37,022 nucleotides of DNA from Acidobacteriota bacterium (GTDB lineage: Bacteria > Acidobacteriota > Polarisedimenticolia > Gp22-AA2), in assembly GCA_003223145.1 (NCBI GenBank), contig QHXY01000297.1:1-37022 (forward strand), in the 5' to 3' direction. The notes under the pieces are model-generated. The model made no database searches. It saw only the letters and a list, made by a program, of their open reading frames with translations, and was not told the DNA's origin. Both the position numbers and the translations under genes were made by a program. Shown one piece after another: positions 12,292 through 23,584 of this stretch. Within the stretch, counting starts at the first letter, position 1; each line of letters starts with the position of its first letter.

Positions 12292-13146
12292 CTATCCCAG
12301 CAGCCGTCTTCGCGCCCGCGCGGCGCGGCGGAAGTGGGGGCCGGGCCGCTGGCCGAGGGCCGCACGGAGAACCCGCAGCTCGCGGATGAAGTCGTCGATC
12401 GCCCGCGCCGTAGCCCGGCGGTTGGTCCTGAGGATACCTTTCCAGAGCGCCGGGGGGCTCGCCGCGAAGCGGCTCATCTGCCTGAACGCCGGTCCGGCCA
12501 GGTGCAGTCGACCCCCGGCGGATGACGCCGCCGCGTTCACCAGCGCCACGCTGATGAGCTGCGGCAGATGGCTGAGCCGGGCCATCGTCCGGTCGTGCGT
12601 CGTTGCGCTGAGGTTTGCCGGGCGGGCGCCGAGCCGCTCCACCAGCGCCGCGACGCGCCCGGCGGCGGAGCGTCCCGCCGCGACGGAGGCGGGACAGAGA
12701 ATCCACGGCGCGCCCGTGAAGAGCGCTCCGCTGGCGCTGCGGATGCCCGATCGCTCCGACCCCGCCATCGGATGGCCTCCGACGAAGCGCCCGCCCAGAC
12801 CCGCGCGGCGCGCCGCGGCCACGACCACCTCCTTCGTGCTACCGGCGTCGGTGACCACCGCGGCCGGTGAAAGCAGCCGCGCGAGCCGGGGCAGGATTCG
12901 CAGAATGCCGTCGACCGGCATCGCCAGGATGACCAGGTCCGCGCCGGCGAGGCCGCGGGCCAGAGACGGTGTTCCTCTGTGAATCGCTCCACGCCGGCGC
13001 GCGGCGCGCAGCACCCCCGGTCGATCGACGCCGACAATCCTGACGCCGCGCGCCCTGCGGCGCAGGGCCAGACCCATTGACCCGCCAATCAGGCCCACAC
13101 CGACTATCGTGATCCGCCGAAAAGGGGCGGCGCCCCTCACCGCCAA
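12292..13146 (-). CDS. tyrA: Prephenate dehydrogenase
   Basis: A 284-residue NAD(P)-dependent dehydrogenase that oxidatively decarboxylates prephenate to 4-hydroxyphenylpyruvate for tyrosine. The Rossmann motif VGVGLIGGSMGLAL lies at residues 15-28. TDAGSTKEVV and the GGHPMAGSERSG motif around residue 125 are characteristic of TyrA. The length matches the single-domain type without a C-terminal ACT domain, so feedback control by tyrosine may be weak or work by another route. The first possible start is TTG 13146, two bases after the DAHP synthase stop; GTG 13140 is an alternative. It is the last gene of the trp/aro operon. Confidence 0.92.
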   Translation of the reverse strand: MAVRGAAPFRRITIVGVGLIGGSMGLALRRRARGVRIVGVDRPGVLRAARRRGAIHRGTPSLARGLAGADLVILAMPVDGILRILPRLARLLSPAAVVTDAGSTKEVVVAAARRAGLGGRFVGGHPMAGSERSGIRSASGALFTGAPWILCPASVAAGRSAAGRVAALVERLGARPANLSATTHDRTMARLSHLPQLISVALVNAAASSAGGRLHLAGPAFRQMSRFAASPPALWKGILRTNRRATARAIDDFIRELRVLRAALGQRPGPHFRRAARARRRLLG

Positions 13147-13148
13147 CT

Positions 13149-14054
13149 TCAGAGAGTCCGTCCGATCGCCGGCGCGATGATCCTGAGCTGGGCCATCAGC
13201 TCGGCGAATTGCTCCGGGTAGATCGACTGCGGCCCGTCGGACAGGGCGGCCTCCGGCTCATGGTGCACCTCGACCATGACGCCGTCAGCGCCCGCGGCCA
13301 CCGCGGCGCGCGCCATCGGAATAACCTTGTCACGCAGACCCGTGCCGTGGCTGGGGTCGGCGATGATCGGAAGGTGGCTGAGCTTCTTGATGATCGGGAT
13401 GGCCGAGATGTCCATCGTGTTGCGGGTGTAGTTCTCGAACGTCCTGATGCCGCGCTCGCACAGCATCACGTCGCGGTTTCCTCCCGCCATGATGTACTCG
13501 GCCGACAGCAGCCACTCCTGGATCGTGGCGGACAGCCCCCGTTTCAGCATCACGGGTTTCCTCTGGCGCCCCAGCTCCTTCAGAAGATTGAAATTCTGCA
13601 TGTTACGCGCGCCGACCTGCAGGATGTCCGCATACCCTGCCACTAGCTCGACCTGGTTGGTATCCATCACCTCGGTGATCACCAGCAGGTGGTGGCGATC
13701 CGCGACCCGGCGCAGGTGCCCAAGTCCCTCCTCCCCGAGACCCTGGAAGGTGTAGGGGGAGGTGCGCGGCTTGAACGCCCCGCCGCGCAGAATGCGCGCT
13801 CCGTAGCGCTTCACGGAGCTGGCGATGATATCGAGCTGCTTTTCACCTTCGACCGCGCAGGGACCCGCCATCATGACGATGTCATGGCCGCCGATCTGCA
13901 CATCTCCAATCCGGATGACGGTGTCCTCCGGCTGGAATGTGCGTCCGGCCAGCTTGTACGGCTCGGTGATCTTCACCACCTCGTGGACGCCCCGCATGAT
14001 CTCGAATTCGCGCGGATCGAGAGGTGTCCGGCTCGCCCCCACCACCCCGACCAC
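13149..14054 (-). CDS. aroF: 3-deoxy-7-phosphoheptulonate (DAHP) synthase
   Basis: The first enzyme of the shikimate pathway, condensing PEP with erythrose 4-phosphate. The barrel is complete: [55 protein letters not shown] and [10 protein letters not shown] are the standard metal- and substrate-binding motifs of the AroF/KDO8P-like class. The open frame's first standard start is GTG 14054, but homologous residues ([12 protein letters not shown]) continue upstream in the same frame without a start codon. A well-placed ATG at 14101 (AGGGGAG six bases before it) is one base out of frame. One extra G at about 14091 would join them as [12 protein letters not shown]. So the real start is probably 14101 with a one-base break. 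The usual N-terminal ferredoxin-like domain is mostly absent either way. Confidence 0.88.
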
Positions 14055-14149: not shown

Positions 14150-14560
14150 TCAGTCCTGCGCGTCGTCGGTGCGCCCCGGCCCCGATAGGGAACCGCGCGG
14201 CGCTCCCGGCGCCGCGCTCCGGTCGGTCGCATGCCGCTCGATCCAGCGCGACTCGTCGATGATTCTCTCGAACAGCCTGCGCAGCGCCGCCGATTCCAGC
14301 GGTCCCCCGTTGGAGCGCTGGATGTTTCCCAGGACCTCCTCTTCCCGCGCCGGCTGGTAGATTGTCAGACCCCTCCGCCGCTTGATGCGGCCGAGCGCGA
14401 TGGCGCAGCCCGCGCGGTCGTTCAGCAGGCGCACGAGGCGTCGGTCGATCCCGTCGATCCGCCTGCGCAGCTCCTCCATCGCGTCGAGACGACCGGCGCC
14501 CCCCCCGTCCCGTTGTCGGGCTGGCCGCGCTGCCCCTCTGCGTCCCCCCCTGCGCGGCAT
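14150..14560 (-). CDS. Chorismate mutase (AroQ type)
   Basis: A 136-residue protein with a single AroQ-fold helical domain. Residues 28-110 carry [38 protein letters not shown] and [12 protein letters not shown], which supply the Arg, Lys and Glu residues of the active site. It converts chorismate to prephenate for Phe and Tyr. The N-terminal 27 residues are Arg/Gly-rich; translation may instead begin at Met28 (14479). It lies four bases after trpA and about 50 bases before the likely DAHP synthase start. This places the branch-point mutase between the tryptophan genes and the tyrosine gene tyrA. No prephenate dehydratase domain is attached. Confidence 0.88.
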
Positions 14561-14564
14561 GCCT

Positions 14565-15386
14565 TCAGCTCCGCAGGGCGCCGGTCAGGGTACGGCAAAA
14601 CGCCTCGACGGCGCCCTCCAGGTCGGGCGACGCGCCCTTCTCCTCGACGATGCGCACCAGGGCGCTCCCGACGACCACGCCGTCCGCGAAGGCGGCGATC
14701 GTCTTCACCTGTTCCGGGCCGCTGATACCGAACCCCACCGCGATCGGCAGCCGGGAGGCGAGACGCGCCGACTGGACCTGCTCGGCCAGCTCCGGCGGCA
14801 GGTTCTCGCGCGTTCCGGTGACGCCGGTGCGCGAAACGAAGTAGACGAACCCGCTCGCCTCGCGGCACACCCTGTCCACACGCTGGCGGGAGGAGGTCGG
14901 CGACAAGAGAAAGATCAGGTCGACTCCGGACTCCGCCAGAGCGCCACGCAAGTCGCCCGCCTCCTCCGGAGGGAGATCGGTCACCAGGACACCGTCCACG
15001 CCCGACGCGACGGCCGCCTTGGCGAACGTCTCCGGCCCCATGCGGTGGATCGGGTTGTAGTACGTGAACAGGACGACCGGCGGACTGCCGTCGGCTTGCA
15101 GGTCGGCCGCCAGATCGAGGCAGGAACCCAGCGTCACTCCGTTCCGCAGCGCCCGTTCCGACGCCCGCTGATTGACCGGGCCGTCGGCGATCGGATCGGA
15201 GAACGGCACGCCGATCTCCACCAGGTCGGCGCCGGCGTGAGCCAGCGCCTGGACGATGGTACGCGTTCGCCCGAGAGTCGGGTCGCCGGCCGTGACGTAC
15301 GGGATGAACGCGCAGCGGTCCTGCCCGCGGGCGGCGGCGAACGCCCCCGCGATCCGGCCCCCCGGCGTCATCCGACCCGCGCTCAC
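14565..15386 (-). CDS. trpA: Tryptophan synthase alpha chain
   Basis: A 273-residue TIM-barrel subunit that cleaves indole-3-glycerol phosphate to indole and glyceraldehyde 3-phosphate. The signature [19 protein letters not shown] carries the catalytic Glu and Asp. [12 protein letters not shown] at the N-terminus and [10 protein letters not shown] near the phosphate site are also present. Length and motifs are complete, so this gene looks intact. GTG 15386 overlaps the TGA of trpB. Its partner, the beta chain, is broken in this sequence, which makes the intact alpha chain notable. Confidence 0.95.
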
Positions 15387-16521
15387 GGTGAGGCGACCTC
15401 GGTCCCCTCGCGCGCCGCCACCTGCGCGACGTCCTTGTCTCCCCGGCCCGACAGATTGACGATCACGATCGAACCCGCCCGCCCGTCTCCTCCGTCCCGC
15501 AGCAGGTACGCGACCGCGTGCGCCGACTCCAGGGCCGGGATGATCCCCTCGAGCTCCGCCAGGGCGTGAAAGGCGGCCAGCGCCTCGTCGTCCGACGCGT
15601 GCGTGTAGGTGGCGCGTCCGCTGTCACGCAGGTGCGCGTGCTCGGGCCCGACCGCCGCGTAGTCGAGACCGGCCGAGACCGAGTGGGTCGGCAGGATGTT
15701 CCCGAACGCATCCTGCAGCAGGTAGGTCCGCGTGCCCTGCAGCACGCCGAGGCTGCCTCCCGCGAAACGCGCCGCGTGGCGCCCGGGAAAGAGCCCGGAG
15801 CCGCCCGCCTCGACTCCCACGAGACGCACACCGGGGTCGTCGAGAAAGGCGTGGAACAGGCCGATCGAGTTGCTGCCGCCGCCGACGCAGGCGATCGCCA
15901 CGTCCGGCGCCTCGCTCCCCGTCTGCCGCTTGAGCTGGAGCCGCGCCTCCTCGCCGATCACGCGATGGAAATCGCGCACCATGCGGGGGAAGGGGTCGGG
16001 GCCGAGCACCGAGCCGAGCACGGGCTTCCGGCCGCCACCGGTCTGACCTCCGCTCCCAGGAGCTTCATGCGGTAGACGTTGAGCGCCTGTCTTCGCATGT
16101 CCTCCTCCCCCATGTACACCGCGCAGCGCAGTCCGAACAGGGCAGCGACCATGGCCGTGGCGACGCCGTGCTGGCCGGCTCCGGTCTCGGCGATGACCCT
16201 GGTCTTCCCCATGCGACGGGCCAGCAGGGCCTGGCCGACGGTGTTGTTGATCTTATGCGCTCCCGTGTGGGCCAGGTCCTCCCTCTTGAGATAGACGCGC
16301 GTCTTGCCCCCGAGGCGCCTCGACAGGTTGTCGGCCCGGTACAGAGGCGTCGGGCGGCCCGCGTATGTTCGCAGGTAGTGATCCAGCTCCTTCAGGAAGG
16401 CGGGATCGGAGCGCGCCGTCGTCCAGGCCTCCTCCAGCTCCTGGAGCGGGCTCATCAGCGTTTCGGGGACGAAGCGGCCTCCGTAGCGGCCGAAGTGGCC
16501 GCCGGCATCGGGTGTCTTCAC
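15383..16521 (-). pseudogene. trpB: Tryptophan synthase beta chain, disrupted by an internal deletion
   Basis: Both halves of TrpB are present but in different frames. From GTG 16521 the N-terminal half includes [13 protein letters not shown], the PLP lysine in HTGAHKINN and AETGAGQHG, then [21 protein letters not shown]. Translation then leaves the family and stops at 15958. The C-terminal half resumes in another frame at [14 protein letters not shown], includes the PLP phosphate loop GGGSN and ends at 15383. Compared with Salmonella TrpB, about 24 residues of the linking segment (the SGS-TLKDA...W...HY region) are missing: about 72 coding bases are replaced by five. The break is near 16029-16033. 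The gene is flanked by intact trpF and trpA with GTGA overlaps. It is either a real inactivating deletion or an assembly error. Confidence 0.88.
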
Positions 16522-17156
16522 GACGGGCCCTCCAGCGCCTGCGCAGCCTCACGCACGCGTCTCATGAACTCGGCCAGAAGCCGGCGGTCCTTCCTGCCGG
16601 GGGCGGTCTCGACGCCGCTGTTGACGTCCACGCCGTAAGGCCTGGCCACGGCGATCGCTTCGCCGACGTTCTCCGGAGTCAGGCCTCCGGCCACGATCAC
16701 ACGGCGGTAGGCGGACGCCAGGCGCGCCACCGTCCAGTCGAAGGTCGCACCCGTCCCGCCCTTCTTTCCAGGCACGCGGGCGTCCAGGAGCGAGGTGTTG
16801 CAGCGGTAGCGCTGCACCGATTCCGGTCGGAACTGCGTGCCGACGCGGTGGGCCTTGTACCAGGGGATGGCGATCGCCTGGCAGGTTTCGGGCGGCTCGT
16901 CCCCGTGCAGCTGCAGGCAGTTGAGCCCGGCCAGAAGCGCCGTCGCTTCCATGACGCGCGGCAGCTCGTCGGCAAACACCCCGACGCGCACGACGAAGGG
17001 AGGCACGGCGGCGCACACGTCGTGCGTCAGCTCCGGCGCAACGCGCCTCGGGCTTCCCTCGACGAAGTTGAACCCCAGGGCGTCCACTCCGAGCTCGACG
17101 CCGAGCAGGGCGTCCTCCAGCCGGGTGATGCCGCACAGCTTGACGCGCACGTTCAC
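16518..17156 (-). CDS. trpF: Phosphoribosylanthranilate isomerase
   Basis: A 212-residue TIM barrel carrying out the third step from anthranilate (PRA to CdRP). The N-terminal [13 protein letters not shown] contains the catalytic cysteine motif. [23 protein letters not shown] and GVDVNSGVE, with its catalytic Asp and phosphate contacts, are all in order. The start is GTG 17156, which overlaps the trpC stop (GTGA); the frame extends upstream but without homology. Its own TGA overlaps the GTG of trpB. Nothing unusual in the sequence. Confidence 0.93.
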
Positions 17157-17941
17157 GACGCAGCGCCTCCCGCCAGCTCGCGCAGCGCCGCCCCCGGGTC
17201 GGCCTCGCGCATCAGCCTTTCGCCGATCAAGAAGGCGACGTACCCCGCGCCGCGCAGACGCTGGATATCCAGGGGAGTCTCGATGCCGCTCTCGCTGACC
17301 TTGATCAGCGGCTCCGGCAGGCGCGGTGCCAGCCGCAGCGAGTTCTCGATCGACACGCTCATGGTCGCGAGATCCCGGTTGTTCACCCCGACCACCGCCG
17401 CGCCGCATTCGATCGCCCGGTCCACCTCCTCCTCGGAGTGGACCTCCACCAGGGGCTCCATGTGCAACGAGCGGGCAACCCCGATCAGCGTCGCCAGATC
17501 CTTCGAGGTCAGGATGCGGGCGATCAGGAGGATCGAATCGGCGCCCAGGACGCGACTCTCGTAAACCTGATACTCCTCCAGTACGAAGTCCTTGCGCAGC
17601 ACCGGCACCGCGACCGCGCGCTTGGCATCCCCCAGGTGCTCCGGCGCGCCCAGAAAGAAGCGCGACTCGGTCAGGACCGACAGCGCCGCGGCGCCGGCGC
17701 GCGCGTAAGAGGCGGCGATCGCCGCCACGTCGGCGGCGGCATTGATCTCGCCCTTCGAAGGCGAGGCCTTCTTGATCTCGGCGATGATGTTGATCCGATC
17801 GCCCCGGCGGATGGCCGCGCCGAAATCCCGTGGCGGCAGGGCGGCGGTGGCCATCTCAATGACCCGGCGGAGCGGACGCTCCACCTTGTCCCGCGCCACC
17901 TGCGCCTTCTTGGCCTGCACGATCCGTTCGAGAACGCCCAC
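17153..17941 (-). CDS. trpC: Indole-3-glycerol phosphate synthase
   Basis: A 262-residue enzyme that closes the indole ring (CdRP to indole-3-glycerol phosphate). Typical motifs are LERIVQAKKAQVARDK at the start, INIIAEIKKASPSKG with the catalytic lysine, PVLRKDFVLEEYQVYESRV, EVHSEEEVDRAIECGA, VGVNNRDL and SESGIETPLDI. GTG 17941 was chosen because GGAGG lies five bases upstream and family similarity begins there. The frame is open to 17992 without homology. About 66 non-coding bases separate it from trpD, the longest gap between the main trp genes. Confidence 0.94.
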   Translation of the reverse strand: MGVLERIVQAKKAQVARDKVERPLRRVIEMATAALPPRDFGAAIRRGDRINIIAEIKKASPSKGEINAAADVAAIAASYARAGAAALSVLTESRFFLGAPEHLGDAKRAVAVPVLRKDFVLEEYQVYESRVLGADSILLIARILTSKDLATLIGVARSLHMEPLVEVHSEEEVDRAIECGAAVVGVNNRDLATMSVSIENSLRLAPRLPEPLIKVSESGIETPLDIQRLRGAGYVAFLIGERLMREADPGAALRELAGGAAS

Positions 17942-18007
17942 CCGCCCTCCCCGAGCGCGGCCCTCACTGCGGCGCGGTCCGCGCAGGTGCACCCCGCCGC
18001 GGTCGGC

Positions 18008-19030
18008 TCAGGCGTTGAGCGGGCAGAGCGCCCGCAGACGCTCCAGCACCCGCAGAGCGCCACCCGAGTCGATCGCCTGCGCGGCCAGCTCGACGCCTTC
18101 CTTGAGATCACCCGCTCGTCCCGCCACCACCAGGGCCGCGCCGGCGTTCAGAAGGACCACGTCGCGCCTCCGGCCGCGCTCCCCGCCCAGCACACTCCCG
18201 GCAATCGCCACGTTGCGCTCGACGTCCCCGCCCGCGAGCTCATCCACTCGCGCCCGCGGCAGCCCGGCGTCCTCCGGTGTCAGCTCGCCCTCGCGCACCC
18301 GGCCGTCCCGCAACTCCGCCACGCGGGTCGTCCCGTGAAGGGTGATCTCGTCGAGGCCGTGACCGTGCACCACCATGGCCCGTTCCGAGCCAAGCTCCCT
18401 GAGAACTTCGGCCATCACACGAAGACGGCCTGGGTCGTACACGCCCAGCAGCTGGTGACGGGCTCCCGCGGGGTTGGTCAGCGGACCGAGGATGTTGAAC
18501 ACGGTCCGCACCCCCAGCTCCCGCCGCACCGGGGCGGCATGACGCATGGCGCCGTGCAGCGACGGAGCGAACAGGAAACCGAGCCCGACCTCCCGGAGCG
18601 ATCGCTCGTCGGTCGCGACCGGGACATCCACGCGCACGCCCAGGCCCTGCAGGAGATCGGCGCTGCCGCAGCGGCTGCTCACCGAATGATTGCCATGCTT
18701 GGCGACCACCACGCCGGCCGCCGCGACGACGAAGGCGGCCAGCGTGCTGATGTTGAACGTGCCGGACGCGTCGCCCCCCGTGCCGCAGGTGTCGAGAATC
18801 ACCGGGGCGTCGCAGCGCACCCGCGTGGCCCGCTCGCGCATCACCCGCGCGAACTCGGTGATCTCGACCACCGTCTCGCCACGCATTCTGAGCCCGATGA
18901 GGAAGGCCGCCAGCCGCGCCGGCGGGACGCAGCCGTCCATGATCGCCTCGAACGAGGAGCGCGCCTCGGGCGCCGACAGGCGGACTCCGTCGACCACCTT
19001 GCCCAGGATCACCTGCAGCACATCCTCCAT
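18008..19030 (-). CDS. trpD: Anthranilate phosphoribosyltransferase
   Basis: A protein of about 340 residues that transfers phosphoribose from PRPP to anthranilate. The PRPP site DTCGTGGDASGTFNIST, the KHGNHSVSSRCGSADLL motif and FAPSLHGAMRHAAPVRRELG followed by NILGPLTNPA are diagnostic and complete. ATG 19030 gives the conserved start MEDVLQVILGKVVDG. GTG 19048 would overlap the end of trpG by 13 bases. It is separate from trpG, not fused as in enterobacteria. Confidence 0.94.
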   Translation of the reverse strand: MEDVLQVILGKVVDGVRLSAPEARSSFEAIMDGCVPPARLAAFLIGLRMRGETVVEITEFARVMRERATRVRCDAPVILDTCGTGGDASGTFNISTLAAFVVAAAGVVVAKHGNHSVSSRCGSADLLQGLGVRVDVPVATDERSLREVGLGFLFAPSLHGAMRHAAPVRRELGVRTVFNILGPLTNPAGARHQLLGVYDPGRLRVMAEVLRELGSERAMVVHGHGLDEITLHGTTRVAELRDGRVREGELTPEDAGLPRARVDELAGGDVERNVAIAGSVLGGERGRRRDVVLLNAGAALVVAGRAGDLKEGVELAAQAIDSGGALRVLERLRALCPLNA

Positions 19031-19035
19031 CGCGC

Positions 19036-19611
19036 TCACCCGGCCCACGGCCGTTCCAGGAAATTCTTCAGGAGGGCCTTGCCGTCCCGCGTCAGGACCG
19101 ACTCCGGGTGGAACTGCACGCCCTCGGTCGGGTGAAGCCTGTGACGCAGCCCCATGATCACTCCGTCCTCCGTGCTGGCCGATACTTCGAGGTCGGACGG
19201 CACGCTCTTCGGGTCGACGACGAGCGAATGGTAGCGGGTCGCCTCGAAGGGATTCTCGAGGCCGGCGAAGATCGTGCGGCCATCATGCCGGATCCGGCTG
19301 GTCTTGCCGTGCATCAGCGAGGGGGCGCGCACGACGCGGCCGCCGAACGCCTGCCCGATCGCCTGGTGCCCGAGGCAGACTCCGAGCACCGGCAACCTGC
19401 CCGAAAAGGCCCGCACCGCGTCGAGGGTGATGCCGGCGTCGTCCGGGGTGCGCGGCCCGGGAGAGATGACCAGGGCCTGCGGTCGCCGGGCGGAGATGCC
19501 TTCCACGGTGATCCGGTCGTTGCGGTACACCTCCACGTCCGCCCCGAGTTCCTGGAGATACTGCACCAGGTTGTAGGTGAAGGAGTCGTAGTTGTCGATG
19601 ACCACGATCAC
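19036..19611 (-). CDS. trpG: Anthranilate synthase component II (glutamine amidotransferase)
   Basis: A 191-residue class I amidotransferase supplying ammonia to TrpE. The catalytic triad region is present: the nucleophile Cys in VLGVCLGHQAIGQ and the His-Glu pair in GVQFHPES. The N-terminal IDNYDSFTYNLVQYL and ISPGPRTPDDAG are typical. GTG 19611 overlaps the trpE TGA. It could also serve para-aminobenzoate synthase, as many TrpG proteins do, because no separate pabA is visible here. Confidence 0.94.
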   Translation of the reverse strand: MIVVIDNYDSFTYNLVQYLQELGADVEVYRNDRITVEGISARRPQALVISPGPRTPDDAGITLDAVRAFSGRLPVLGVCLGHQAIGQAFGGRVVRAPSLMHGKTSRIRHDGRTIFAGLENPFEATRYHSLVVDPKSVPSDLEVSASTEDGVIMGLRHRLHPTEGVQFHPESVLTRDGKALLKNFLERPWAG

Positions 19612-21071
19612 GTCCGCGCCTCCGCCCGCTCGATCGCGTCGATCAGGGCCCCCGCCTTGCTTACGCACTCGCGGTACTCGCGGTCAGGGACCGAGTCGGC
19701 CACGATCCCGGCGCCGGCCTGCACGTGCGCGATGCCACGGCTCATCACGGTCGTGCGGATGGTGATGCAGGAGTCGAGGTTGCCGGAGTAGTCGACGTAA
19801 CCGACCGCGCCGGCGTACGGACCGCGGCGCGTGGTCTCCAGCTCTTCGATGATCTCCATGGCGCGCACCTTGGGCGCACCGGACACGGTGCCCGCCGGGA
19901 AGCAGGCCAGGAGACCGTCGAATGCGTCCCGGTCGGCCCGCAACCGCGCGGTCACCTCCGACACAAGGTGCATGACGTGCGAGAAGCGCTCCACCCCCAT
20001 GAAGTGGCTGACCTCGACGGTGCCGGGCCGGCCGACGCGCCCGAGGTCGTTGCGGCCCAGGTCGACCAGCATCACGTGCTCGGCCCGCTCCTTGGGATCG
20101 GTCAGGAGCTCCCTCTCCATCGCCCGGTCCTCGTCCTCATCCCGGCCCCGCGGGCGGGTGCCGGCAATCGGCCGCGTCCGGATCCGGTCCCCCTCCACCC
20201 GCACCAGCATCTCCGGCGAGGCGCCCGCCAGGGTGACCTCCCCGAAGTCGAGGTAGTACATGTAGGGCGAGGGGTTGATGCGGCGGAGGGCCCGGTAGAT
20301 CGAGAAGGGCGAGGCCCGGGCCCTGCGCTCGAAGCGCTGTGACAGGACCACCTGGAAGATGTCGCCGGCGCGGATGTAGTCCTTGGCCCGCCTGACGCTC
20401 GCTTTGTAGCGCGCCTGGCTGATGTTCGCTCGCCAGCGGTCGCGTCCCGGCGCGCGGCGCGCCGCCGGCGCCGCGGCTCGGCGCAGCAGATTCTCCATGA
20501 ACTCGATGCTGCGACGTGCGGCGCGGTAACGCTTGTCGAGGACTCTCGACTTCACGCGCTCGCCCCGCTCCTCGGTGCGGATGTTCGACACGATCTGGAT
20601 CCGCTGCTTCAGGTGATCGAACGCCAGAACGGTGTCGTAGATCCCGAACAGGATGTCGGGCACGCGCAGGTCGTCCTTGACGGACCGAGGCAGTCGCTCG
20701 ATCGACCGCACCACGTCGTAAGACAGGTAGCCGACGGCGCCGCCGGTGAATCGCGGCAGGTCCGGGAAGCGCACCGGACGGTGACTCGCCATGATCCCGC
20801 GCAGGGACTCGAGCGGGTCGCCCTCGCGCTCGCCGACCGTCGCCCGCACGAGACCCGCGGGGTCCCGCCCGAGGAATGAGTAGCGCGCAATCGCCTCGCC
20901 CCCCTCCACGGACTCCAGGAGGAACGGCTGCCGCGCCCCCCTCGCGATACGCAGGAAGGCGGCCACGGGCGTGAGCAGGTCGGCGTCGATCTCGCGGCAC
21001 AGCGGGACGACGTTCCCCTGCCGCGCCAGGTCCGGCAGGTCCGCCGCTTCGAGGTTGCACCCGTCCTTCAC
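19608..21071 (-). CDS. trpE: Anthranilate synthase component I
   Basis: A 487-residue chorismate-using enzyme making anthranilate with TrpG. The N-terminal PFLLESVEGGE contains the LLES element that binds tryptophan in feedback-inhibited TrpE, so allosteric control is likely retained. The catalytic part has RPIAGTRPRG, ELLTDPKERAEHVMLVDLGR, FPAGTVSGAPKVRAMEII and the C-terminal GAGIVADSVPDREYRE. All catalytic motifs are intact. GTG 21071 overlaps the stop of the upstream lipoprotein gene, so translation of trpE is probably coupled to that gene. Confidence 0.95.
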   Translation of the reverse strand: MKDGCNLEAADLPDLARQGNVVPLCREIDADLLTPVAAFLRIARGARQPFLLESVEGGEAIARYSFLGRDPAGLVRATVGEREGDPLESLRGIMASHRPVRFPDLPRFTGGAVGYLSYDVVRSIERLPRSVKDDLRVPDILFGIYDTVLAFDHLKQRIQIVSNIRTEERGERVKSRVLDKRYRAARRSIEFMENLLRRAAAPAARRAPGRDRWRANISQARYKASVRRAKDYIRAGDIFQVVLSQRFERRARASPFSIYRALRRINPSPYMYYLDFGEVTLAGASPEMLVRVEGDRIRTRPIAGTRPRGRDEDEDRAMERELLTDPKERAEHVMLVDLGRNDLGRVGRPGTVEVSHFMGVERFSHVMHLVSEVTARLRADRDAFDGLLACFPAGTVSGAPKVRAMEIIEELETTRRGPYAGAVGYVDYSGNLDSCITIRTTVMSRGIAHVQAGAGIVADSVPDREYRECVSKAGALIDAIERAEART

Positions 21072-21763
21072 GACTTCTTTTCGTCCTTCTCGAAGATCCC
21101 CAGAGTGCGCGGGACCTCGAACACGACCTCGATCGGCTCCTCGAGACCCTTGACCTTGAACAGCAGCCGCAACGGCACTCCGTTCAGCCCCGATTCGGGG
21201 ATGGGGAAATAGATCACGTCCTCCATGTACGACTGCGGCGGCAGGCTCACCTGATCGATGAGCAGACCGCGCCCGGAAGAGGATGGGTAGAAGTTGCTCT
21301 GCACGTAGGTGTACAGGCCGACGCCGATGAGGGTGAACTGGCGGTTCTGGACGAACAGCCGACGGTCCAGGTCGAGGCGCGGGTAGTGATCGGCGACCTC
21401 GCGGGAGGGCGCCATGGAGTACTGCTTCCCGAGGGGATCCTCCAGCGTGAAGGATTCACGGGTGATCTCGAACGTTCCTTTGGTCTTGTTTGCGACCTGC
21501 ACGAACAGAGGGAAATACGATTCCTTGCGGATCAAGCGGGCAGCATCCACCCCCGCGACCATCATCGCCAGCTTCCCGTCTTCCTTGTAGTTGTACGGGC
21601 TCAGTTTGTCGCTATAAGGGGTCACCACGTTCAGATTGCGCTCGAGCGAGGTGCATCCAGCGATTCCGACCGCCAGAGCCACAGCCATCCCGACTCGAAC
21701 CCGCCGCCACCCTCTCACCTGCGGCATCTCTGTCGGCCTCATCATGTCGATCGACCTCATCAT
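21068..21763 (-). CDS. Lipoprotein of unknown function preceding trpE
   Basis: A protein of about 231 residues that I do not recognise. After MMRSIDMMRPTEMPQV comes a hydrophobic signal, AVALAVGIAGC, ending in a lipobox cysteine, so it should be a lipoprotein. The mature domain has strand-rich segments (YFPLFVQVANKTKGTFEITR, RLFVQNRQFTLIGVGLYTYV) and an acidic/lysine tail (FEKDEKKS). Several in-frame ATGs are possible (21763, 21745, 21727, 21688). The start lies about 125 bases after the aromatic leader peptide and the stop overlaps trpE (GTGA). By position it belongs to the trp operon although it has no obvious metabolic role. The frame is open further upstream (to 21976), but that part lies in the leader region. 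Confidence 0.75.
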   Translation of the reverse strand: MMRSIDMMRPTEMPQVRGWRRVRVGMAVALAVGIAGCTSLERNLNVVTPYSDKLSPYNYKEDGKLAMMVAGVDAARLIRKESYFPLFVQVANKTKGTFEITRESFTLEDPLGKQYSMAPSREVADHYPRLDLDRRLFVQNRQFTLIGVGLYTYVQSNFYPSSSGRGLLIDQVSLPPQSYMEDVIYFPIPESGLNGVPLRLLFKVKGLEEPIEVVFEVPRTLGIFEKDEKKS

Positions 21764-21812: not shown

Positions 21813-21887
21813 CCAGGGCGCACTTGCGCCCGGGCGCCCGCGCTCACCGGAGACGGCGGGGCCGGGACGGCTCCGCCGGCGCGCCGG
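21813..21887 (-). promoter_or_regulatory. Putative attenuator region of the trp operon: stacked GC hairpins
   Basis: Directly after the leader peptide stop (minus strand) lies the palindrome CCGGCGCGCCGG (21887-21876). A strong hairpin follows at 21878-21854: a six-base and a four-base stem separated by one A/C mismatch, with a three-base loop. A further hairpin lies at 21833-21813 (GGGCGC, AAGT loop, GCGCCC). The leader's last codons (GGCGC at 21895-21891) can also pair with GCGCC at 21882-21878, which would compete with the first large hairpin. No U-tract follows, so this is not a standard intrinsic terminator. Any control may act through Rho, pausing or translation. Confidence 0.5.
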
Positions 21888-22007
21888 TCAGCGCCACCAA
21901 TAGTAAGAGTGGTTTGTGTCGTGGAACAGGACGAAGTGAGGGGACCGCGCCGCCCCGCGGATCGTGAGGTCCACAAAGTCGTCCTCGCCGATGGGTCGAG
22001 CCTGCAC
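21888..22007 (-). CDS. Aromatic amino-acid leader peptide of the trp operon
   Basis: A 39-residue small open frame beginning at GTG 22007, with GGAGA six bases upstream and about 20 bases after the predicted transcription start. It ends HDTNHSYYWWR-stop: tandem Tyr (TAC TAT) and tandem Trp (TGG TGG at 21899-21894) one codon before the stop. Tandem codons for the end product at the end of a short leader are the hallmark of ribosome-mediated attenuation. The operon below makes both Trp and Tyr precursors. A second in-frame GTG at 21974, with GAGG upstream, would give 28 residues. Hairpins follow immediately. The assignment rests on pattern only; it is too short for homology. Confidence 0.7.
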   Translation of the reverse strand: MQARPIGEDDFVDLTIRGAARSPHFVLFHDTNHSYYWWR

Positions 22008-22035
22008 GGCCGATCTCCGAAAAGAAGGCGGCGTT

Positions 22036-22064
22036 ACTCTAGTACACGACCGGGATCGTGTCAA
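22036..22064 (-). promoter_or_regulatory. Consensus sigma70-type promoter of the trp/aro/tyr operon
   Basis: On the minus strand TTGACA (22064-22059, perfect -35) is followed by a 17-base spacer and TAGAGT (22041-22036, four of six). Transcription would start near 22029, about 20 bases before the leader peptide GTG. The -35 overlaps the stop codon of aroDE. Confidence 0.75.
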
Positions 22065-23584
22065 TCACGCTTCCCGCGCCGGGGCCGTGGTTTCGGGGGA
22101 GGCGGCCCCGCTGCGGCGCGGGGCTCCTCCCCGAGGGCTCCGAGCGCCACCCGGCGCATCAGTTCGACAGGGGCCTGGCGGCCGGTGAACAGGGCGAATT
22201 GCGCGGCCGCCTGCGCCACGAACATCTCCACGCCGCCCAGAGTCGATTGTCCGCGGCAGCGCGCCTCCCGCAGCAACCGGGTCTCTGGAGGGTTGTAGAT
22301 GATGTCATACACGATGGGAGCGGCGATCCAGGAGGCCGGAATCGGCGAGCGGTGGATCTCCGGCGCCAGACCGACCGAGGTCGCGTTCACCAGAAGGTCG
22401 CACGGGTATCGACGCAGGCGGGCCCAGGGGAGATGGCGCGCGCCGAAACGGCGCGCCAGAGTCCGCGCGCGCGCCGCGGTTCGATTGAAGACGGTGACGC
22501 GCGCGCCGGAGCGCACCAGTCCATCCACCACGGCCTGTGCCGCTCCTCCGGCCCCCATGACCGCGACGCGGGCGCCCTCGAGAGCCATCCGGCCGCGGAG
22601 CGGGGTCAGGAACGCCTCGACGTCCGTGTTGCGGCCTTCGAGACGATTCCACACCTTGACGACGGTGTTCACCGCCCCGACGCGCCGCGCGGTATCGTCC
22701 AAGGCATCGAGGTGCGGGAGGATCGCTTCTTTGTGGGGCAGCGTGACGCTCAAGCCGACGAGGCGCAGCTCGCTCAGGACCGGCAGGAATTCGGCCAGCC
22801 GGGACGCCTCGAACGGCAGATAGCAGTAATCGAGCCCGAGCTCTACGAGCGCCGCGTTGTGAAGGCGTGGGGAAAGCGAGTGCCCAATCGGGTAACCGAG
22901 AACACCGAGAAGCCGTGTCCCGGGTCCGATCAGGTGGAAGCGATAGAGACCGAACAACTCCTCGAGACAGACCTGGCCGGGAGCGCTTCCCGCCGCGCCG
23001 CGCGCCGGGGCGTAGACGGCGGCCGACCCCCACGAGGGCGCCAGGATCCTGCTGGGAACGCCCTTCGGGCCCATGCAAAACGCGATGAGCGACCCCGGTC
23101 CGGCGGACTGGAGCAGGTCACGCACCCTCACGATGTCGCTCGCGGCGTCCGCAAACGTGACGATCTTCGGGAGCGCGTCTCCCCCGGCCGCGCGCATCTC
23201 ACGGTAGAGCGCCTGCAGATCCGCCGGCGTCCCGTTGAAATCGTGGTGCGACAGCAGACGGCGCGTCCGCCCGCGCCCGCTCAGAAAGACGAGGTCCCGT
23301 TCGCCGAACTCCAAATCGACATAAGCGACGCCGGCGGCCAGGGCCTTCCGCAGAAGGGGCTCGCGCTCGGCCGGCCGGGCCGCTCCCCCCTGCTGGCGGC
23401 TGCGGACCGTGATCAGCTTGGGCTTGCCTTTGAGGGCGAGCATTCGATCCGCGTCCAGGTCCCTGACGAGATCCCAGCGCAGCTCGACCACGTCGGCGCG
23501 CGGGTCGGCGGCGAGGTAGGCGCGACACGCCGCCTCGGTGGTATCGCAGGCGACCACCTGGATGACGAGACAGCGCGAGGTCAA
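22061..23584 (-). CDS. aroDE: Bifunctional 3-dehydroquinate dehydratase (type I) / shikimate dehydrogenase
   Basis: A 507-residue fusion of two consecutive shikimate-pathway enzymes. The N-terminal 220 or so residues are a type I dehydroquinase: VVELRWD, the catalytic His in LLSHHDFNGTP, the Schiff-base lysine in PKIVTFA, and FCMGPKGVPSRI. The C-terminal 280 or so residues are AroE: LGYPIGHSLSPRLHN, the catalytic VTLPHKE, GAVNTVV, the Rossmann loop VMGAGGAAQAV, LLVNATSVG and GVEMFVAQAAAQF. The order is that of the plant and chlamydial fusions. It starts at TTG 23584, with GGAG six bases upstream, 17 bases after the cysteine synthase. It finishes in a Pro/Arg/Lys-rich tail overlapping the trp promoter. 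Confidence 0.93.
   Translation of the reverse strand: MTSRCLVIQVVACDTTEAACRAYLAADPRADVVELRWDLVRDLDADRMLALKGKPKLITVRSRQQGGAARPAEREPLLRKALAAGVAYVDLEFGERDLVFLSGRGRTRRLLSHHDFNGTPADLQALYREMRAAGGDALPKIVTFADAASDIVRVRDLLQSAGPGSLIAFCMGPKGVPSRILAPSWGSAAVYAPARGAAGSAPGQVCLEELFGLYRFHLIGPGTRLLGVLGYPIGHSLSPRLHNAALVELGLDYCYLPFEASRLAEFLPVLSELRLVGLSVTLPHKEAILPHLDALDDTARRVGAVNTVVKVWNRLEGRNTDVEAFLTPLRGRMALEGARVAVMGAGGAAQAVVDGLVRSGARVTVFNRTAARARTLARRFGARHLPWARLRRYPCDLLVNATSVGLAPEIHRSPIPASWIAAPIVYDIIYNPPETRLLREARCRGQSTLGGVEMFVAQAAAQFALFTGRQAPVELMRRVALGALGEEPRAAAGPPPPKPRPRRGKRD

Follow-up and report, generated by a model that had tools for sequence, protein, structure and literature searches.

Introduction

In Escherichia coli, the trp operon stands behind trpL, a short translated frame with its own promoter, tandem Trp codons, and mutually exclusive hairpins. 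The threonine and branched-chain leaders (thrL, ilvL, and ilvB) carry control codons for several amino acids. For TnaC, the step downstream of the leader is Rho, and no intrinsic terminator is needed right after it. Previously, trpL-type attenuation has been described in Proteobacteria and Actinobacteria, as a system built from Trp codons, a U-tract terminator, and hairpins that exclude each other (PMC1262725). Attenuators in Acidobacteria were noted in 2010 to be nearly all without function (PMC2965389). A 2005 paper singled out tyrA supraoperons equipped with attenuators as worth studying but did not mention leader peptides (PMC1173090). Our literature search found no description of Trp/Tyr leaders in open-access papers; most subscription journals lay outside that search, and the novelty claimed here is limited accordingly.

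The present study examines a 37,022-nucleotide stretch of DNA from an Acidobacteriota bacterium (contig QHXY01000297.1), hereafter the window. A sequence-only reading had proposed that it holds an aromatic leader peptide ahead of a trp-aro-tyr operon. Our analysis gives a probability of roughly 75% to the reading that the element is a leader-peptide cis-regulator of a lipoprotein-trp-chorismate mutase-DAHP synthase-tyrA operon, which would act as a hairpin switch set by codon stalling.

The leader and its operon

For comparison within the family, we used six species: the window genome (G000), G001, G002, and G003 from the same genus, and G005 and G006 from other genera. The leader is on the minus strand. 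It is flanked by aroDE (22061-23584) on one side and by a lipoprotein gene (21068-21763) on the other, and its elements are as follows.

22036..22064, minus strand: sigma-70-type promoter TTGACA-N17-TAGAGT, recognized by sequence and by the same site in five other family members
22014..22018, minus strand: Shine-Dalgarno sequence GGAGA of the leader, invariant in six species
21888..22007, minus strand: leader reading frame, GTG at 22007, 39 codons MQARPIGEDDFVDLTIRGAARSPHFVLFHDTNHSYYWWR, TGA at 21890-21888, kept in relatives
21966..21989, minus strand: 24-nt block GGCGAGGACGACTTTGTGGACCTC within the leader frame, without a difference among four species of the genus
21891..21905, minus strand: control codons TAC TAT TGG TGG CGC (Y-Y-W-W-R), with Y-x-W-W-R-stop in 6/6

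The promoter, GGAGA, GTG, and 39-codon frame ending in Ser-Tyr-Tyr-Trp-Trp-Arg-stop (SYYWWR) are thus all present as the sequence-only reading had claimed; the strand, which it left unstated, is minus. The −35 box TTGACA (22064-22059) and the −10 box TAGAGT (22041-22036) are separated by a 17-nt spacer and match the consensus at 10 of 12 positions. Promoter-like sites of that quality occur twice in 8 kb, against 0.2 in shuffled sequences; the second one (24602, plus strand) was assigned to another gene. The transcript would start near 22029 on the minus strand. A longer reading of the frame, with 58 codons, was rejected since its start falls inside the promoter. The leader frame has no Pfam match, and a search of the region against Rfam, with Trp_leader and T-box included, gave only a chance-level match (asX3).

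The genes around the leader are listed below.

22061..23584, minus strand: aroDE (3-dehydroquinase/shikimate dehydrogenase), upstream of the leader, by Pfam; its stop overlaps the −35 box of the leader
21068..21763, minus strand: lipoprotein-like gene, first after the leader, open reading frame with uncertain start codon and no Pfam family
19608..21071, minus strand: trpE (Pfam PF00425, PF04715)
14565..19668, minus strand: trpG, trpD, trpC, trpF, trpB (interrupted), and trpA, open reading frames with the gene order of relatives
14150..14560, minus strand: chorismate mutase (Pfam PF01817)
13149..14054, minus strand: DAHP synthase (Pfam PF00793)
12292..13146, minus strand: tyrA, prephenate dehydrogenase (Pfam PF02153, PF20463)

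The operon therefore reads lipoprotein-trpEGDCFBA-chorismate mutase-DAHP synthase-tyrA, all on the minus strand, and the lipoprotein and trpE reading frames overlap. Conserved elements and operon genes together bear out the proposal of a leader with its own promoter ahead of a trp-DAHP synthase-chorismate mutase-tyrA operon, with the correction that the first gene behind the leader is the lipoprotein gene and trpE comes next. The order cysK-aroDE-leader-lipoprotein-trp-chorismate mutase-DAHP synthase-tyrA is the same in G001 and G002, and in G005 up to the end of its contig. An M20-type peptidase gene sits between leader and lipoprotein gene in G005 and G006. A lipoprotein-like gene is found directly upstream of trpE in families f1, f2, f9, f10, and f11. 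Within trpB of the window (15950-16025, minus strand), about 67 nt present in G001 and G002 are missing and the frame is broken, which is either an assembly error or a real lesion of the window genome.

Conservation within the family

The 39-residue peptide as query matched G001, G002, and G003 with E values of 1e-11 to 5e-14 and G005 with 5e-7. Identity to the window peptide is 66-71% within the genus and 55% in G005, and each of these four leaders is preceded by a TTGACA-N17-TAnAGT promoter. In G006, from a third genus, a 42-codon frame occupies the same place behind TTGACA-N17-TACAGT and ends in YDSYCWWR-stop. Across the family members, the −10 box is TAGAGT, TAAAGT, or TACAGT. The leader ends are HSYYWWR (G000), NHYFWWR (G001), YFYYWWR (G002), NHYHWWR (G003), TSYYWWR (G005), and DSYCWWR (G006). 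Hence, Y-x-W-W-R-stop is invariant in 6/6, where x is Y, F, Y, H, Y, and C in the same order. Judged by the recurrence of promoter, GGAGA, start codon, and WWR-stop end in five relatives, the leader is not a product of chance. G004 and G007, of the same family, neither support nor contradict this conservation, since only a distant trpE paralogue was seen in them.

Aligning the upstream regions of relatives had been suggested with the sequence-only reading; in that alignment, the small frame and its aromatic codons are kept. The reading had, however, emphasized a YYWW ending. The Trp pair of that ending is conserved, but the Tyr pair is not: two adjacent Tyr codons occur in 3/6 family leaders, and only one Tyr codon is invariant.

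Residues shared between the leaders of G000, G001, and G002 are encoded by identical codons in 86-92% of cases, compared with 56-66% in the trpE, aroDE, and lipoprotein genes. The 24-nt block does not differ between four species, although synonymous positions elsewhere have diverged strongly. With codon identity this high and the block unchanged, selection in the leader acts on RNA or DNA and not on the peptide alone.

These patterns bear on two explanations in which the peptide itself would be the functional product. The frame might encode a small functional protein unrelated to operon regulation, as its length of 39-42 residues and the 55-71% identity in relatives would allow. We find this scarcely credible, given the lack of a Pfam match, the poor conservation of most G006 residues outside the C-terminal end, and the nature of that end, a cognate-codon run whose like recurs phylum-wide in unrelated peptides. 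Alternatively, the peptide could be a nascent arrest peptide resembling TnaC, which would sense a free amino acid through F-H-x-T-[ND] and E-D-[DG]-F and act through Rho. The N-terminal half and FHxT[ND] are indeed conserved in 5/6 leaders, the stop codon directly follows WWR, and no intrinsic terminator is present. Even so, an arrest peptide is very unlikely here: the nucleotides are better conserved than the residues, G006 keeps little except the C-terminal end, and the genes under TnaC control are catabolic, while a biosynthetic operon preceded by tandem cognate codons fits codon sensing.

Leaders across the phylum

Acidobacteriota trpE loci were fetched with their flanks (119, later 139). 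Small frames with a Trp cluster lie upstream of trpE in the sense direction at 53/118 loci, compared with 8 in antisense. About 20 of the sense matches are the AroE C-terminus QFEWWTG read in frame and were excluded as leaders; just ahead of trpE in aroDE-trp loci such as L112, L116, and L133, this conserved end mimics a Trp leader and yields false positives. Where aroDE leads the operon, Trp-cluster frames are found upstream of it in 31/43 loci in sense and 3/43 in antisense. Leaders of the phylum include SYWWWYRTATEGAAGV, AWWYWCTSEEASALA, RYWWWYRSTAEGAAV, YYTYYWWFKR, and YWWWFFYFTNL.

A hairpin followed by a U-tract starts 39-88 nt past the last Trp codon in 57/66 retained leaders. Complementarity between a segment after the control codons and the 5′ arm of that hairpin, as for an antiterminator, beats 95% of shuffles in 40 of the 63 leaders scored. 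In G360, for example, TGAAGGGGCG in the leader is followed by CGCCCCTTCA and then by TGAAGGGGCG-TTTTTATTTT. By its sequence, the sister-family layout is a textbook arrangement of mutually exclusive antiterminator and terminator, and leader tails such as T-E-G-A are an antiterminator RNA segment read as protein. Searches against Rfam at seven sister leaders matched no family. The window leader is part of a set of trp/aro leader peptides that is widespread and, it seems, has not been described before.

Some individual loci deserve mention. In G235 (L205, family f64), a 13-codon frame, MAIRSFFWRNGNH, lies 58 nt before trpE; its operon includes chorismate mutase and DAHP synthase and lacks tyrA, and the frame is possibly a Phe/Trp leader. 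In G044 (L105, family f16), the leader VFFVFGYNYAWRWYSS, with runs of Phe, Tyr, and Trp, lies 68 nt before trpE; the cluster also holds chorismate mutase and, about 11-12 kb on, a divergent tyrA. The genome G270 (family f37) has two trp operons, L194 and L202, each with its own leader (GNYWYWR and GYRWCWWR, respectively).

Tyr codons and tyrA

Reading of the Tyr codons predicts that their presence depends on whether the operon makes Tyr. Tyr is found within four codons of the Trp cluster in 35/35 leaders of operons with tyrA and in 7/21 without (p = 2e-8). The leaders in this table were picked automatically from loci of sufficient length for a judgment, except that two wrong picks, G005 and G218, were corrected by hand; fully uncurated, the counts with and without Tyr are 33/0 where tyrA is present and 7/14 where it is absent. 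No other residue approaches the association seen for Tyr, which itself shows no link to tyrA at other places in these peptides. To allow for the shared history of related genomes, we compared non-overlapping pairs drawn from a TrpE tree; four independent pairs went as predicted, none in the opposite direction, and one was a tie.

Close relatives show the same relation. In family f37, Tyr occurs in 3/3 leaders with tyrA (control segments YYWYW, YDYWYW, and YRWCWW) and in 0/5 without (among them NWHWW, QWRW, MWCW, and LWCW). The single member of f33 without tyrA has the leader GWWWWCF. Among the seven tyrA-less exceptions that do carry Tyr, five precede operons with DAHP synthase, which feeds Tyr too; G069 is a doubtful automatic pick, and G021 has neither gene.

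A simpler account would have the leader sense Trp only, with the Tyr codons as passengers or as a means of slowing the ribosome. In the window's family, the Trp-Trp pair is invariant and the second Tyr position varies (Y, F, H, or C), and Tyr is present in some tyrA-less leaders (G041, G042, G059, G024, G016, and G021), as such an account would allow. Nevertheless, we consider it unlikely: Tyr is the sole residue that tracks tyrA in the full table, the independent pairs all point the same way apart from the tie, and Tyr is missing from leaders of close tyrA-less relatives (G378 and the five f37 members). We therefore favor joint sensing, and these leaders probably respond to Trp and Tyr together. 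The dual Trp/Tyr input that had been proposed from adjacent Tyr and Trp pairs thereby gains strong comparative support, although adjacent pairs are not the conserved unit.

Candidate hairpins behind the leader

The control codons and the sequence behind the stop can form two hairpins.

21873..21899, minus strand: candidate 1:2 hairpin, WWR-stop codons with CCGGCGG, foldable in 6/6 at −7.7 to −14.6 kcal/mol
21854..21878, minus strand: candidate 2:3 hairpin, CGGCGG...CCGCCG, foldable in 6/6 at −13.5 to −19.4 kcal/mol

The two are mutually exclusive in 6/6, and the choice between them would fall where a ribosome on the Trp codons or the stop sits. The consensus pairs CGCUG/CGGCG of the 1:2 hairpin are invariant, and so is CCGGCG behind the leader stop in six species, although it is noncoding. 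Covariation was not meaningful across the six leaders, where variation is small (the RNAalifold covariation term is unfavourable), and it neither supports nor refutes either hairpin because the sequence hardly varies. The competing GC hairpins put forward in the sequence-only reading are thus foldable and conserved in position, but covariation does not demonstrate them; since GC-rich sequence folds such hairpins easily, we treat the switch as a hypothesis. A further hairpin inside the leader, GTGGAC with GTTCCAC, shows one compensatory change, in G005 only, which is too little to claim.

Between the leader and the first gene, no U-tract terminator was found in G000, G001, or G006, and the candidate in G002 is spurious. 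The earlier remark that a leader of this kind without such a terminator would be unusual holds for the window's family, as nearly all sister families carry one. The window's family is not the sole terminator-less case, since leaders with YYWW, YSWW, or MYWWFW at L096 and L098 (family f13) and at L167 (G081) likewise have no U-tract terminator close behind.

It is doubtful that a GC-only hairpin after the leader brings about classic intrinsic termination, as in the sisters but without the U-tract. The classic layout of the sister families speaks for such a hairpin, as does G005, in which a strong hairpin ending in GGAAGGGGCTTTC, with three T, lies about 120 nt after the leader stop. Yet the U-tract is absent from three of the family's species, and the region that would hold a 3:4 terminator is as stable as its shuffles (z between −1.3 and +0.5), so that a uniform 3:4 terminator for the family was rejected.

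Attenuation might instead be translational, with a stalled ribosome exposing the start of the next gene, which would be translationally coupled to trpE. The missing terminator and the overlap of the lipoprotein and trpE frames suit this idea, as does the fold predicted for G001, which has the WWR-stop region paired to where the lipoprotein gene starts. The other five species did not show that pairing, and what follows the leader is a lipoprotein gene in one genus and a peptidase gene in the others, which makes this mechanism rather improbable. What we retain, as a hypothesis, is a codon-stalling switch. The search for a terminator in the window's family came up empty, which is why we do not file the element as a classic attenuator; with covariation absent from the hairpins behind the leader as well, classic attenuation is not supported for this family.

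Discussion

From this arrangement, we infer ribosome stalling, sensing of charged tRNA, and a hairpin switch. RNA polymerase would start near 22029, and a ribosome would translate the 39-codon frame. When charged tRNA-Trp is scarce, and to a lesser extent when charged tRNA-Tyr is, the ribosome would slow on the Y-Y-W-W codons. Since the stalled ribosome would cover the WWR-stop segment, CCGGCGG would pair with CCGCCG (2:3) instead of with the codons (1:2), and the operon would be expressed. With Trp and Tyr plentiful, the ribosome would reach the stop next to segment 2 and leave, giving the off state. As the family is without the U-tract terminator of its sisters, the off step could be Rho termination, a hairpin without U residues, or an effect on translation. 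The fuller proposition is that a single leader integrates Trp and Tyr starvation for a fused trp-tyr operon, that its Tyr codons come and go with tyrA across the phylum, and that the leader of the window's family acts through Rho or translation without an intrinsic terminator; this is tentative, and we put it slightly short of even odds.

The window leader would work much as E. coli trpL does, and it shares with trpL the string of Trp codons TGGTGGCGC (WWR), a promoter of its own, a short frame, candidate exclusive hairpins, and a trp operon behind it. In contrast to trpL, it has Tyr codons before the Trp codons and a stop immediately after WWR; its family is without a U-tract terminator, its operon adds DAHP synthase, chorismate mutase, and tyrA, and it belongs to a different phylum. 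Like thrL, ilvL, and ilvB, it carries control codons for several amino acids, in line with what the operon makes; here, however, the amino acids are aromatic, and the second codon type follows the presence of tyrA among relatives. The trp attenuators of Corynebacterium and Streptomyces resemble those of the Acidobacteriota sisters in coming from GC-rich genomes and in having two or three UGG codons, a terminator, and an antiterminator (PMC1262725). Compared with these actinobacterial systems, with their poly-U and Trp regulatory codons, the window's family is without the U-tract and adds Tyr. With TnaC of the E. coli tna operon, it would have in common a Trp-responsive leader peptide (PMC8429421, PMC3902921). 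In neither would the downstream step need an intrinsic terminator right behind the leader. TnaC, on the other hand, senses free Trp and induces a catabolic operon, whereas the window leader presents tandem cognate codons before a biosynthetic one. As far as sequence comparison goes, the window leader would be a novel form of ribosome-mediated attenuation.

Across the phylum, tyrA is gained and lost by operons, and the Tyr codons of the leaders follow it. The phylum-wide set of trp/aro leaders is therefore a natural experiment in adapting a sensor that reads codons to new inputs, and the window's family supplies a case in which the terminator is missing and the leader is still conserved. Furthermore, the set makes dual-input sensing directly testable with reporters.
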